This document shows positions 4,630-31,822 of a stretch of 64,000 nucleotides of DNA, piece after piece. Under the pieces are notes generated by a model. The model was not told the DNA's origin. It searched no databases and worked only from the letters and a program-made list of their open reading frames with translations. Source of the DNA: Truepera sp. bin119 (GTDB lineage Bacteria; Deinococcota; Deinococci; Deinococcales; Trueperaceae); NCBI GenBank assembly GCA_002239005.1, contig MPNL01000004.1:1-64000 (forward strand), given 5' to 3'. The position numbers and the translations under genes are program-made. The first letter of the stretch is position 1, and each line of letters starts with the position of its first letter.

Positions 4630-5415
4630 GTGAAATTTGCTCTGGTCGGCGCTGGCAAGATGGGAGGGGCCATTCTCACGGGGGCTCTGCGGGCTGAAGT
4701 GCTGACCCCTGAGGGGGTCGGCATCTACCACCCGAACCCCGAACGCCGAGCGGCCTTGAGCGAGAAGTTCGGGGTCGCCGGGCTCGACGACGACGCCATC
4801 CACCATGCGGAACAGATCCTGATCGCGATCAAGCCCCAGTCGTTTGAACGGGTCGCACCGCTGATCGCAACACGCAATGCAGTGTTCATCTCTATCATGG
4901 CGGGGTTCTCTGCAGAGGGCCTGGCCCGACGCCTCGGAAGCCGGAGGGTACTCCGGGCCATGCCCAACCTCGGGTCGCGCATCGGTCTCAGTGCTACGGC
5001 GATCACATCGCTGCCCGAGGCCAGCGGTGCGGACTTGGCAATGGCCTCACGTCTGTTTGCGGCGGTCGGGACCGTGTACCAGATTCCTGAGATGCTATTC
5101 AACGCCTTTACCGGCCTAGCTGGGTCCGGGCCAGCTTTCACCGCCGCCGTCGCCGAGGCAATGGCCGACGGTGGGGTACGGGTCGGGTTTAGCCGAGAGG
5201 TGGCGAAGGACCTCGTGCGTCAGGTCCTCCTTGCAACCGCCCACCTGCTCGAGAGCGATGGACCCAGTGGGATAAAGGATATGGTCTCCTCCCCCGGGGG
5301 AACAGCTATCGCGGGGATCAAGGCCCTCGAGCAACACCGGTTGAGGTACGCTCTTATCGACGCCATCGAGCAAGCCACCAACAGGGCCGAGCAGCTCAGT
5401 GAGATCGAAGAATAG
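4630..5415 (+). CDS. proC: Pyrroline-5-carboxylate reductase
   Basis: The 261-residue enzyme carries out the last step of proline synthesis, reducing pyrroline-5-carboxylate with NAD(P)H. The Rossmann loop ALVGAGKMGGAI begins at residue 4, and the family motifs LAGSGPAF and VSSPGGTAIAG are present. I chose the GTG at 4630 because the Rossmann fold starts directly after it; a longer open frame from 4303 would run through the VanZ-like gene. One oddity: the usual RAMPNTPA segment reads RAMPNLGSRIG, so residues near the active site differ from the family norm. Confidence 0.92.
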   Translation: MKFALVGAGKMGGAILTGALRAEVLTPEGVGIYHPNPERRAALSEKFGVAGLDDDAIHHAEQILIAIKPQSFERVAPLIATRNAVFISIMAGFSAEGLARRLGSRRVLRAMPNLGSRIGLSATAITSLPEASGADLAMASRLFAAVGTVYQIPEMLFNAFTGLAGSGPAFTAAVAEAMADGGVRVGFSREVAKDLVRQVLLATAHLLESDGPSGIKDMVSSPGGTAIAGIKALEQHRLRYALIDAIEQATNRAEQLSEIEE

Positions 5416-7604: not shown

Positions 7605-7625
7605 CACCCGAAGAGTCCGTCTTTG
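7605..7625 (+). repeat. 21-nt hairpin repeat, solitary copy
   Basis: CACCCGAAGAGTCCGTCTTTG is 21 bases long only when its first base is counted; from 7606 it reads ACCCGAAGAGTCCGTCTTTG. It matches the repeat family of the transposase genes at 17 and 31 kb, here outside any recognisable gene. Confidence 0.6.
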
Positions 7626-17047: not shown

Positions 17048-17098
17048 ATCGATTTAGTCTCAGCAGACGATTCACTATCAGCAGAAACCCCTCCAACC

Positions 17099-17106
17099 CG
17101 ACGGCG
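17099..17106 (+). repeat. Target site duplication, left
   Basis: CGACGGCG directly before the left inverted repeat, identical to 18476-18483. Confidence 0.85.
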
Positions 17107-17131
17107 GGTCGTAACGTGAGATTATCTCTGC
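17107..17131 (+). repeat. Left terminal inverted repeat of the IS1-like element
   Basis: Twenty-five bases that pair perfectly with 18451-18475; the next base outside the match differs. Confidence 0.9.
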
Positions 17132-17266
17132 TCCCCAAAGGAGGGAGGCCAGTCCTGGTGCATCCTGCACCATGTGAAAAAAACAAACCGACCTCCAATA
17201 GCAAGTCTAGCCTGCACCAATCATGAGTGCCCCAGCTACGGCCGGGCAGGTCAAGGCAACCTCAGA

Positions 17267-17287
17267 GAAGGACGGGTTCGCTGGACC
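17267..17287 (-). repeat. 21-nt hairpin repeat, IS1 copy 1
   Basis: Reverse orientation; stem bases GGT/ACC around loop CCAGCGA. Read through as EGRVRWT. Confidence 0.75.
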
Positions 17288-17416
17288 CGCAAGAGCTACG
17301 GACCGGACCGGATCCGTTACTTACGCTGCCGGAGCTGTGCAGGAGAGTTCAGCGAACGTAAGAACACCCCTTTGTGGAACAGCAAGATCGGTGAAAGCAA
17401 GGCCTGTGCCATTGCT

Positions 17417-17437
17417 GATCCAGCGAATCCGTCCTTG
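17417..17437 (+). repeat. 21-nt hairpin repeat, IS1 copy 2
   Basis: Consensus copy: GAT, loop CCAGCGA, ATC, then CGTCCTTG. Read through as DPANPSL. Confidence 0.85.
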
Positions 17438-17536
17438 CAACTCGCCGAAGGTACTTCGGTGAGGGGAACAGCTCGGCTCACAGGCATCACCCCAGAGGCG
17501 ATCCGGCGACTGGCTTCACGGTTAGGAGTGCACGCC

Positions 17537-17557
17537 GATCCAGCGAATCCGTCCTTG
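17537..17557 (+). repeat. 21-nt hairpin repeat, IS1 copy 3
   Basis: Identical to copy 2 and read in the same frame as DPANPSL. Confidence 0.85.
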
Positions 17558-17728
17558 CGGTTCCACGACCAGCGGGTCCAACAGCTGGCCAGCACCAGCT
17601 TGCAGGCCGATGAACGCTGGGGCTTCGCTGGCAGTAAGCGCGAGCAACTCTGGCAGGCTGAAGTGATCGATCCGGCAACCAGGCTGGTGGTGGCCTTTGC
17701 CACTGGGGTGAGGGACGAACAGCTAGTC

Positions 17729-17749
17729 GGATCCAGCGAATCCGTCCTT
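17729..17749 (+). repeat. 21-nt hairpin repeat, IS1 copy 4
   Basis: Same core as copy 2 but shifted by one base relative to the reading frame, so it is read as GSSESVL. Confidence 0.85.
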
Positions 17750-17786
17750 CAGGTCCTGCAGGACGCTGTTTCTCGCCAAGATCGGA

Positions 17787-17807
17787 CAAGGACGGCTTCG
17801 TTGGAGC
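17787..17807 (-). repeat. 21-nt hairpin repeat, IS1 copy 5
   Basis: Reverse orientation; stem GCT/AGC, loop CCAACGA. Flanks (AACCCGAA and TCCGATCTTG in the reverse strand) look like a second, split copy around it, as at 31617. Confidence 0.65.
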
Positions 17808-17874
17808 TTCGGGTTTCCTATCCCCAGGGAATGGTGCTGTTCAGCGATGGTGAGCCGAGCTATAAGCGACTCTA

Positions 17875-17895
17875 AAACCGGACTCTTCGGGTCCG
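17875..17895 (-). repeat. 21-nt hairpin repeat, IS1 copy 6 (degenerate tail)
   Basis: Reverse orientation; perfect 5-bp stem CGGAC/GTCCG (17879-17883, 17891-17895) around a loop reading CCGAAGA. The tail reads TAAAAC instead of CAAGGA and contributes the stop codon. Confidence 0.6.
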
Positions 17896-18144
17896 CCCCA
17901 TACTCGGCCACCCCTACCGGCCTGCCCGGCAGGGATCGAGAGGCCGGTTCCCCAAGGTACGCTACCGTCTCGGCAGGCGTCAGGCACAGGTAATGGTCCG
18001 CAAGACCAGGCAGGGAGGGCGCCTCGTTGGGGTCGAGGCTCAGATTGCCCATGGAAGTAGTAAGCGCCTAGCCAGGGAGCTCTCTCGGCTGGGCTTCTCG
18101 CAGGCCAACACCAGCACCATCGAACGGCGCAATGGTACGGCACG

Positions 18145-18165
18145 GACCCGTAGAGTCCGTCCTTG
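18145..18165 (+). repeat. 21-nt hairpin repeat, IS1 copy 7
   Basis: Stem GAC/GTC, loop CCGTAGA, tail CGTCCTTG. Read through in the third frame as TRRVRPW. Confidence 0.75.
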
Positions 18166-18214
18166 GATGGACGCGACAAGTGCAAGAAAGACGTTGGCCT
18201 TTGCCAAGACTACT

Positions 18215-18235
18215 GATCCAGCGAATCCGTCCTTG
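18215..18235 (+). repeat. 21-nt hairpin repeat, IS1 copy 8
   Basis: Identical to copies 2 and 3, read as DPANPSL. ACT occurs on both sides, possibly a 3-bp target duplication. Confidence 0.85.
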
Positions 18236-18403
18236 ACTAAGAGGGTTCTGGGAGCTTGGGGGGTGCTGATCTACAACTGGGCCCGGGAGTGTAGATCGCT
18301 CAAGCGGCCACTACCCCAACCGAAGGGCCGGCAGCTATATGAGAGACGCTCTCCGGCGATGGCTGCGGGGCTAACTGATCGGATTTGGAGTATTCGAGAG
18401 TTG

Positions 18404-18424
18404 CAAGGACGGATTCGCTGGATC
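18404..18424 (-). repeat. 21-nt hairpin repeat, IS1 copy 9
   Basis: Exact reverse complement of copy 2, read through as QGRIRWI, close to the end of the transposase frame. Confidence 0.85.
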
Positions 18425-18450
18425 CGGTCACCTACTTATCCGGGCGGGGG

Positions 18451-18475
18451 GCAGAGATAATCTCACGTTACGACC
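18451..18475 (-). repeat. Right terminal inverted repeat of the IS1-like element
   Basis: Perfect 25-bp inverse match to 17107-17131. Confidence 0.9.
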
Positions 18476-18483
18476 CGACGGCG
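18476..18483 (+). repeat. Target site duplication, right
   Basis: CGACGGCG, identical to 17099-17106. Confidence 0.85.
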
Positions 18484-19003
18484 GCCACTCTGCCTGCATC
18501 GAACTGTCCGACAAGCTAGTGGTACATCTCCAGCACCGCCGGATGGTCCCCGCGGCGCAGCCGAGGTTCTGTCAAACGAGGAGCACGACTCTGGCCCAGC
18601 GGCATCTCGAGCGGTCGGAAAGGCACCTAAGAACTCGCTGGGGCTGTCGATTAGGGAATACTCCCTGCGATCAACTGTTTTTGAAGTACCTCCCTACGGA
18701 GCGCTGCCCACGAACTACCCCGCATGGCAGGGTCACGTCGGAAGGTTAAGACCAGGGGGTGTTGAAACAAAGAGTTCAGGCCGGAGCCAGCAACCTTAGT
18801 CCGAGGCGCCCACGGGCACAGCCCACAGACGCGAGGGCGAAAGTCCGCCAACGTTGGCAACCTCGAGGCGAAAGGTAAGGGCAAGTACCAGGGTCTAGGG
18901 CTATGGGAAGCGTAGCCAGTACTTTGGGCAGTTCGGTCGACGCGCCAACCCCATGGCATCAGCGGCAACACCTTTGAGCAGGCGCACGCCGGGGTGACCG
19001 TTA
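18484..19003. other. Intergenic region between the IS and iolB
   Basis: No gene recognised in 520 bases. The part from about 18740 to 18930 is purine-rich on the plus strand and contains a self-complementary GCCAACGTTGGC (18847-18858), which could be an operator or part of an RNA, but I match it to no known family. Confidence 0.4.
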
Positions 19004-31037: not shown

Positions 31038-31227
31038 AGCCACCAATGGTTTGAGGTCCGGCCCATAAAGAATTACGTCGTTTGCTACTTGATCTGCGGA
31101 TAAAGGAAAGGGGATGGTGGGTCTTCATGAATCCCCATCCCCGGTACCAGTATAGGCCAGAAGAGCTGTTCCTCACAGTATTTCGTCTACCTAGGCAACT
31201 GGCCCAAACCCTACCAGAGCCTACTAC

Positions 31228-31248
31228 CAAGGACGGACTCTCTGGATC
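31228..31248 (-). repeat. 21-nt hairpin repeat, second IS copy 1
   Basis: Reverse orientation, CAAGGACGGACTCTCTGGAT plus C; the stem pair is partly mismatched. Confidence 0.75.
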
Positions 31249-31283
31249 AGCAACCTGCCCAGAAGGCGAGCTAAAGCGAACTT

Positions 31284-31304
31284 CAAGGACGGATTCGACT
31301 GAAT
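31284..31304 (-). repeat. 21-nt hairpin repeat, second IS copy 2 (diverged)
   Basis: Reverse orientation; CAAGGACGGATTCG is intact, while the other end reads ACTGAAT instead of CTGGATC. Confidence 0.6.
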
Positions 31305-31391
31305 GCCGAGCGGCTACTGTCCAAGCTCGCTCTATCGGTACTACCAGCTAACCGGACCCAGCTGATCAACAGCAAACCACTGCCGGTAGCG

Positions 31392-31412
31392 AACCCGAAG
31401 AGTCCGTCCTTG
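31392..31412 (+). repeat. 21-nt hairpin repeat, second IS copy 3
   Basis: Loop CCGAAGA and tail CGTCCTTG. It lies exactly in frame between SKPLPVA and GKRSSW and is read as NPKSPSL, matching the DPANPSL of the IS1 copies. Confidence 0.8.
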
Positions 31413-31568
31413 GGCAAACGCTCTTCCTGGTCGAAGTTTCCAGAGGCCACGAAGGGGTTTGGCATCATGGGGATGGTATTCGGCTTCAAACTACATACCT
31501 TGACCAACCTTGAGGGACTGTTTGAGAGCTGGGCCTTCGCAGCGGCGAATCATAACCGATCTGACCCG

Positions 31569-31587
31569 GACCCAACGAGTCCGCTTG
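31569..31587 (+). repeat. 21-nt hairpin repeat, second IS copy 4 (19 nt)
   Basis: Perfect stem CGGAC/GTCCG (from 31567) around loop CCAACGA; two bases of the tail are lost. Confidence 0.7.
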
Positions 31588-31608
31588 TGAGCCCGTACGT
31601 ACCCTCCA

Positions 31609-31648
31609 GACCCGAAGCTCCGACGAAGCCGCCCTTGTCCGTCTTCGA
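31609..31648 (+). repeat. Nested pair of 21-nt repeats
   Basis: A full inner copy (31617-31637; stem GCT/AGC, loop CCGACGA, tail CGCCCTTG) sits between GACCCGAA and TCCGTCTTCG, the two halves of another copy. The same nested arrangement appears at 17787-17807. Confidence 0.6.
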
Positions 31649-31718
31649 GGGACCCCGCCCTTAGCTGGCTCGAGAACTGACTGACCCGAAGCAAGAACGG
31701 CCAAAGACAAACTCTACG

Positions 31719-31749
31719 GGCCCAACGAAGCCTTCTTATCCGTCCTTAG
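31719..31749 (+). repeat. 21-nt hairpin repeat, interrupted copy
   Basis: GGCCCAACGAAGCC is separated by seven bases from CCGTCCTTA, so this is a copy with a small insertion or a nested remnant. Confidence 0.5.
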
Positions 31750-31801
31750 GGGATAAGGCCTATATCGGTATAGGCGTGCCGACACCGAAGCGATCGAACA
31801 T

Positions 31802-31822
31802 GACCCGGAGAGTCCGTCCTTA
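31802..31822 (+). repeat. 21-nt hairpin repeat, second IS copy
   Basis: Stem GAC/GTC, loop CCGGAGA, tail CGTCCTTA. Confidence 0.75.

Follow-up and report, generated by a model that had tools for sequence, protein, structure and literature searches.

A 19-nt hairpin dispersed through a 3.21-Mb draft genome (91 contigs, 96.8% complete, 3.0% contamination) is among the smallest mobile DNA pieces known: each insertion swaps 19 nt for one host base, a net gain of exactly 18 nt or six codons. We consider it very likely that the family is a lineage-specific, non-autonomous, very small mobile palindrome that is exchanged 19 for 1, dispersed, self-nesting, and retained in intact genes. A preliminary description of one window (the whole stretch of DNA analysed, 64,000 nucleotides, positions 1-64000 of its contig) had proposed a small palindromic mobile element in coding sequence, and this is borne out by genome-wide dispersal, 46 sites with empty counterparts, the exact 18-nt gain, nesting, and in-frame insertions in cellular genes. 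Mobility is read from the filled and empty copies of one genome, not from movement directly seen.

Units in an IS1-Like Element

The window contains an IS1-like element (Table 1), of which the genome has dozens of copies, some full and some partial. Its transposase has a weak Pfam match to DDE_Tnp_IS1 (E 9e-4, below the curated cut-off); relatives were not found in the contigs of ~85,000 species genomes, and an Rfam search of the IS region gave no match. The nine 21-base repeats described in this element, in both orientations, were all recovered, but a tenth unit had been missed and the mobile unit proved to be 19 nt. This tenth unit encloses the 17787 copy, which divides its minus strand into AACCCGAAG and GTCCGATCTTG; removing the inner unit restores the outer one. 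Seven of the nine copies match GATCCAGCGAATCCGTCCTTG with up to 3 mismatches, and 100 dinucleotide shuffles of the window gave no match. As reported before, all three forward phases are used and the transposase frame (17174-18460) stays open through all copies but one, the sole break being a TAA at 17873-17875 inside that copy. A second, unrelated IS of the DDE_Tnp_1 type (window 31127-31822) is also studded with units, one of them nested.

Table 1. Units and their host elements in the window, with occupancy of the same site in other IS copies.
Feature	Position	Strand	With flanking host bases	Description
IS1-like IS	17098..18484	+		Hosts units; 39-bp inverted repeats 17098-17136 and 18446-18484, 92% complementary
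19-nt unit	17268..17286	-	17267-17287	GGT/ACC stem; 16 other copies occupied, 1-2 empty
19-nt unit	17418..17436	+	17417-17437	GAT/ATC stem; occupied in 6/6 comparable copies, none empty
19-nt unit	17538..17556	+	17537-17557	GAT/ATC stem; 4 copies occupied, 5 empty
19-nt unit	17731..17749	+	17730-17750	GAT/ATC stem; 3 copies occupied, 5 empty
Outer unit	17778..17814	-	17777-17815	AAC..GTC stem, tail CGATCTT; split by inner unit 17788-17806; 6 empty copies with one host base, window copy 37 bases (two units)
Inner 19-nt unit	17788..17806	-	17787-17807	GCT/AGC subfamily, nested in outer unit
19-nt unit	17874..17892	-	17873-17893	Changed tail CGGTTTT (21-mer tail CGGTTTTA); with host T at 17873 gives in-frame TAA; 5 occupied copies, 1 near-empty (2 bases), 1 double
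19-nt unit	18146..18164	+	18145-18165	GAC/GTC stem, CCGTAGA loop (contains TAG); 1 occupied, 3 empty, 1 double and 1 triple copy, lengths 1/19/37/55 bases
19-nt unit	18216..18234	+	18215-18235	GAT/ATC stem; occupied/empty 2/2 (direct count), 3/4 (site cluster)
19-nt unit	18405..18423	-	18404-18424	GAT/ATC stem; 19 occupied, 3 double, 1 partly deleted and 2 empty copies
Unit	31229..31247	-		Second IS, DDE transposase remnant about 31127-31802; two empty copies
Unit	31393..31411	+		Second IS (DDE remnant); empty copies L136, L066, L140
GCT-subfamily unit	31618..31636	+		Nested in outer GACCCGAAG/GTCCGTCTTCG unit
Unit	31803..31821	+		GAC/GTC stem, CCGGAGA loop
Unit	7606..7624	+		CAC/GTC; outside any IS1-like copy; empty counterpart in L078

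Across the IS copies, the interval between the host flanks of the window sites is 1, 19, 37, or 55 bases. The preliminary description allowed that related IS copies might all carry the same 21-mers at the same sites; instead the sites are occupied in some copies and empty in others. We give next to no credence to the view that the units belong to the IS1-like element as conserved parts, either protein-coding or structural, and were amplified along with it. Sites 17268 and 18405 are indeed filled in most IS copies, and about a third of the catalogued units lie inside IS1-like copies, but the sites are polymorphic, and the same 19-nt unit occurs in several unrelated IS types and in cellular genes, in both orientations and all phases; the empty sites and the units outside the IS already refute it.

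Borders and Target of the Unit

Comparison with copies lacking the repeat had been suggested as the way to exact insertion borders; these were obtained, and they place the mobile unit at 19 nt rather than the 21 first assumed. Multi-copy IS elements and one hsdM paralogue supplied the filled and empty versions. The gap is exactly one host base in 315 filled/empty pairs from 46 independent sites, mostly 80-100% identical in the flanks, where single mismatches may be later mutations and some "empty" copies may have lost a unit instead of never having received one; all come from one draft genome, so assembly or strain mixing could blur some pairs, yet units lie on contigs of 126-236 kb. We took the first and last base of the 21-mer (n1 and n3) as host, with n2 as the host base between them. 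The n1 base is the same in filled and empty versions at 42/46 sites (shuffled sites: mean 30.2, maximum 36), including 8/8 sites where it is not G, and n3 is the same at 45/46 (mean 29.6, maximum 38), including 13/13 where it is not G. Agreement at n2 is no better than in shuffled sites (27 vs 29.8; 1/13 where not A). Because the second base of the 21-mer agrees no better than chance and has its pairing partner within the unit, at position 12, it belongs to the unit, which is thus 19 nt long and replaces a single host base, for a gain of 18. Neither n1 nor n3 is doubled and the host base between them disappears; target-site duplication is absent, and flanking DNA beyond the unit is not carried along into new sites.

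The general form of the unit is x Y CC NNN GA R x' CC GTCCTT, in which x pairs with x' and Y with R. The base x is often identical to the lost host base (A), and for such A-type units an 18-nt insertion after A is indistinguishable from a 19-for-1 swap, which thus rests on the C-, G-, and non-A-target cases. The target reads GAG at 17 of the 46 sites, n1 and n3 each being G at 31, and T is never found at the lost base n2 or at n3. Of the 34 non-nested sites, 24 have C at -2, where the background is 28%, and 16 have G at -3. We concluded that the preferred target is (G)CN-G-A-G, and it is used in both orientations and all three codon phases.

Hairpin Structure and Stop Codons

When the stem letters were left out of the selection of units, positions 2-12 formed a Watson-Crick pair in 128 of 161 flank-distinct sites (83.5 expected) and positions 3-11 in 127 (66.9 expected), while pairing of position 1, the host base, departs less from expectation (111 vs 94.4). 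Stem covariation exceeded all 500 shuffles (0/500) and all slid versions, so that the compensated stem variation noticed in the window holds for the family. The supposition that the host's 5' arm serves as template for the 3' stem arm was dropped: position 1 is host and shows no covariation with position 13, and position 2 belongs to the unit. Choosing units by stem and tail alone gave 118 sites in which the loop has C4 and A10 at its ends. The loop CC..GA is kept as a non-pairing C.A, for which the opposite strand reads G.T/U, and this minus strand forms a triloop on a 7-bp stem (-7.1 and -9.0 kcal/mol as RNA); the plus strand folds more weakly (-4.0 and -5.9 kcal/mol). Stability of the whole hairpin is modest (z -1 to -2.3). 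From folding and the G.T/U wobble, its sole basis, we infer that the minus strand, 5'-AAGGAC plus hairpin, would be the working form. The minus strand of the GAT type, AAGGACGGATTCGCTGGATC, shares GCTGGATC and AAGG with the 3' end of bacterial 16S rRNA, which may be chance; these letters are absent from the other subfamilies. Loop-length classes in multiples of three were not found, the 7-nt loop being nearly fixed.

The main consensus has no stop codon in any of the six frames, as stated in the preliminary description, but the variant with the CCGTAGA loop, present at 18145, contains TAG. Stop-free sequences make up 49 of the 58 distinct 19-mers, and composition shuffles of the main variants are stop-free 14-32% of the time. 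The unit had also been read as adapted to coding sequence. This gains little from the present data: stop-freeness is not statistically striking, and the frame is kept because the net gain is 18 nt, a by-product that is not by itself evidence of adaptation.

Abundance and Distribution

A genome-wide search with the first consensus (GATCCAGCGAATCCGTCCTTG) gave 156 matches at up to 3 mismatches, and the general pattern allowing other stems and loops gave 195 at up to 1 mismatch; the controls (a reversed pattern for the first) gave 0 in both cases. The GAC/GTC type alone has 117 matches in the genome at up to 2 mismatches. The unit is therefore found at far more than the two loci to which it might have been limited. 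In 766 kb of sequence taken around copies we recorded 341 units, which occupy 217 distinct sites (the reversed control gave 18); both counts are lower bounds for the whole genome.

Elsewhere, 110 other genomes of the order yielded scattered imperfect single matches, not above control; one tight pattern run against ~85,000 species genomes found 24 contigs with one match each in unrelated taxa (chance estimate about 15), and the unit pattern had one match in IMG/VR. Judged from these sequence searches, the hairpin family looks confined to this lineage. The host probably belongs to Deinococcota, as the dihydrolipoyl dehydrogenase encoded in the window finds its best PDB match in Thermus thermophilus 2eq7.

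Nesting of Subfamilies

The subfamilies differ in where they nest. Units with the GCT/AGC stem sit at the GAG within a GAC/GTC unit in 11 of 13 sites, and GGT-stem units with a GAA-type loop lie inside GCT-type units in four of six, while the main GAT type is nested in 0/36; the null model for nesting often retained the unit itself, hence solely this contrast between subfamilies is used. At several nested sites the outer unit is empty in other IS copies.

Two repeated contexts were observed besides. A composite of nested units, RTRSKNVLYGPNEV(V/A)LVRP, recurs in frame in an IS481 transposase (L061, about 960-1020) and upstream of a peptidase M3 gene (L130, about 5085-5140). The context ..cacccctacca[unit]gagatgcgtaccaga.. 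is found at least 15 times (L031, L035, L039, L041, L042, L052, L054, L066, L069, L073, L077, L078, L083, and L084) and is probably a small transposon of its own.

Units in Genes

Units were found in transposases of the IS1-like, IS3, IS481, IS66, Mutator, and other DDE types, and in cellular genes encoding type I restriction-modification HsdM, an ImmA/IrrE-type peptidase, DnaX, two type ISP restriction enzymes, an exo/endonuclease-phosphatase, and a TAXI-type (NMT1_3) receptor. Two hsdM copies read RETRRVRPWGEPSE; a 93% identical paralogue reads KESGEPSE without the insert, which is likewise absent from hsdM of other genomes, where the sequence is KETHERDESAPP-like. A second hsdM insertion consists of an 18-nt unit and a 27-nt longer-loop relative, GACCCGAGCGAAGCGAGAGTCCGTTCC (L126, about 5053-5118, minus strand; also L134 and L203), the relative again being a multiple of three in length. 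An orthologue of the ImmA-like gene, 52% identical, lacks exactly six residues at the insert. In dnaX the unit lies in a linker that is too variable to prove an empty site. Alignment of a type ISP enzyme with a PDB entry gives no sign that the mid-protein unit (2 mismatches) is an insertion, and extra length appears only between two aligned domains, near the C-terminal units. The hsdM and ImmA-like genes that carry in-frame units are otherwise intact. The cellular inserts are located where orthologues vary in length, or in linkers, and such positions, known from sequence comparison, fit inserts that would be translated and tolerated.

In two diverged IS481-type transposases (L061:1317-1337 and L081:4861-4881) a unit interrupts the catalytic SDNG motif at the same codon, parting D from NG; one frame is otherwise open and the second copy has stops, so at least one is decayed. 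The shared site may reflect independent insertion at a favoured target, or it may reflect shared descent.

The preliminary description had offered skipping at the RNA or translation level as one reading of the units. Post-transcriptional removal or ribosome skipping, as in byp elements, would leave the host proteins unchanged, and the IS481-type pair could be taken as an argument for it, translation of a unit inside SDNG being expected to do harm. But the stops in the second copy are what one sees in dead elements, one window copy itself creates an in-frame stop, and the location of the cellular inserts in length-variable stretches or linkers fits simple translation. Moreover, the unit is stop-free in most frames and adds whole codons, which makes skipping unneeded. 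No positive evidence for skipping was obtained, and we regard it as highly improbable.

How the Unit May Move

We searched the genome for a candidate mover. The profile of Y1 (RAYT-type) transposases, PF01797, had no match in this 97% complete draft, where absence is not final, and matched in five control genomes; PF04986, the profile used for Y2 transposases, had no match here or in the control genomes, and this negative carries no weight. A DDE transposase acting in its usual mode is unlikely because there are no duplications. The sole RVT_1 match in the genome is a truncated reverse transcriptase of the group II intron type (L145, C22:313-747), and it was rejected as mover, being a single fragment with no unit near.

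In the mechanism we propose, a single minus strand, 5'-AAGGAC-GGATTC-NNN-GGATC-3', would be the active form; it would fold into a triloop hairpin that has a fixed G.U/G.T wobble, and the host base at the junction would complete the basal pair. A candidate factor acting in trans, not recognisable as a Y1 transposase, would insert or copy the single-stranded hairpin; within genes, the six extra residues would simply be translated and tolerated in loops and linkers. We advance only tentatively, as somewhat less than an even chance, the full proposal that a dedicated factor inserts or copies a single-stranded hairpin of 19 nt, RNA or DNA, 19 for 1 at (G)CNGAG, with six codons per event and subfamilies specialised for insertion into one another, and that this is a new mode of DNA spread. 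If the dedicated-factor reading is true, the subfamilies would be hyperparasites of a hyperparasite of insertion sequences.

A serious rival, though in our judgement a rather unlikely one, is that no dedicated enzyme takes part and that the unit spreads during replication or repair by template switching or by gene conversion over tiny homologies: a nascent strand whose last base is the host base would jump to a hairpin copy elsewhere, copy 19 nt, and return one base on. This accounts for the one-base replacement without duplication, and it agrees with the failure to find a Y1 transposase, with the G that donors and targets often share on both sides (31/46 at n1 and 31/46 at n3), and with nesting inside copies, where homology is at hand. 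Against it, the borders are identical to the base also at non-G sites (8/8 and 13/13), flank outside the unit is not co-copied, and the subfamily-specific targets and the preference for C at -2 look like recognition.

Comparison With Known Systems

The small hairpin with a one-sided unpaired tail, in which CGTC is present, might be taken for a GTAG- or CGTC-superfamily REP mobilised by a RAYT or other HUH transposase, the more so as some REPs are known within ORFs (PMC3733652). In CGTC REPs the stem measures 8-9 bp and the loop 4-5 nt, and a terminal tag and a CCA tail are present; they are mainly intergenic, form head-to-head dimers, and lack a known transposase (Di Nocera et al., 2013, PMC3733652). 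None of these structural traits, nor the intergenic bias or dimers, is found here by alignment, folds, and empty-site borders; the units end in neither a GTAG nor a CGTC tag, their stem and loop lengths are unlike both superfamilies, and PF01797, which is expected for GTAG REPs and REPINs, had no match in the 97% complete draft. We therefore judge the REP reading improbable.

Rickettsia palindromic elements (RPE; Ogata et al., 2000) are likewise palindromic selfish repeats in frame inside conserved protein genes, here hsdM and the ImmA-like gene, and their insert in gmk is translated and tolerated (PMC2229807). They differ in being palindromes of 105-146 bp with terminal inverted repeats, whereas the present unit has 19 nt, resides mostly in IS, and makes a fixed one-base replacement. 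The byp elements of yeast mitochondria, also short palindromic inserts scattered through coding genes, are transcribed and bypassed by the ribosome (cited in PMC6649704); here, judged from sequence alone, there is no sign of bypass. The units share with MITEs that they are non-autonomous, dispersed, and structured, but they have no IS-shared terminal inverted repeats and no target-site duplication, and they measure between a tenth and a fifth of what is usual for a MITE.

Little is understood about very small mobile repeats, whose borders and mode of movement are as a rule unclear for want of empty sites. The closest parallel is to the SDR1-8 repeats of Nostoc and relatives (Elhai et al., 2008, Genome Res. 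18:1484, cited in PMC3116915), which are reportedly very small mobile hairpins of about 21-27 nt in high copy, and we know of no enzyme for these cyanobacterial SDRs. Both groups have units of about 20 nt (here 19, or 21 with host bases), a compensated hairpin, high copy number in one lineage (here 217 sites in 766 kb), nesting in themselves and in minitransposons, and no known mover enzyme. The present units differ in sequence and phylum, in base-exact borders (19 for 1, net 18) taken from filled/empty pairs, in their in-frame insertions in coding genes including intact cellular ones, and in the ordered nesting of subfamilies. By these described features, and with no claim of sequence kinship, the 19-nt units may be filed with the very small mobile repeats as SDR-like. 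One genome with 46 filled/empty sites and a base-exact rule makes models of their movement testable, and a whole-codon element of this kind keeps supplying IS transposases, restriction-modification genes, and other genes with in-frame insertions of six residues.
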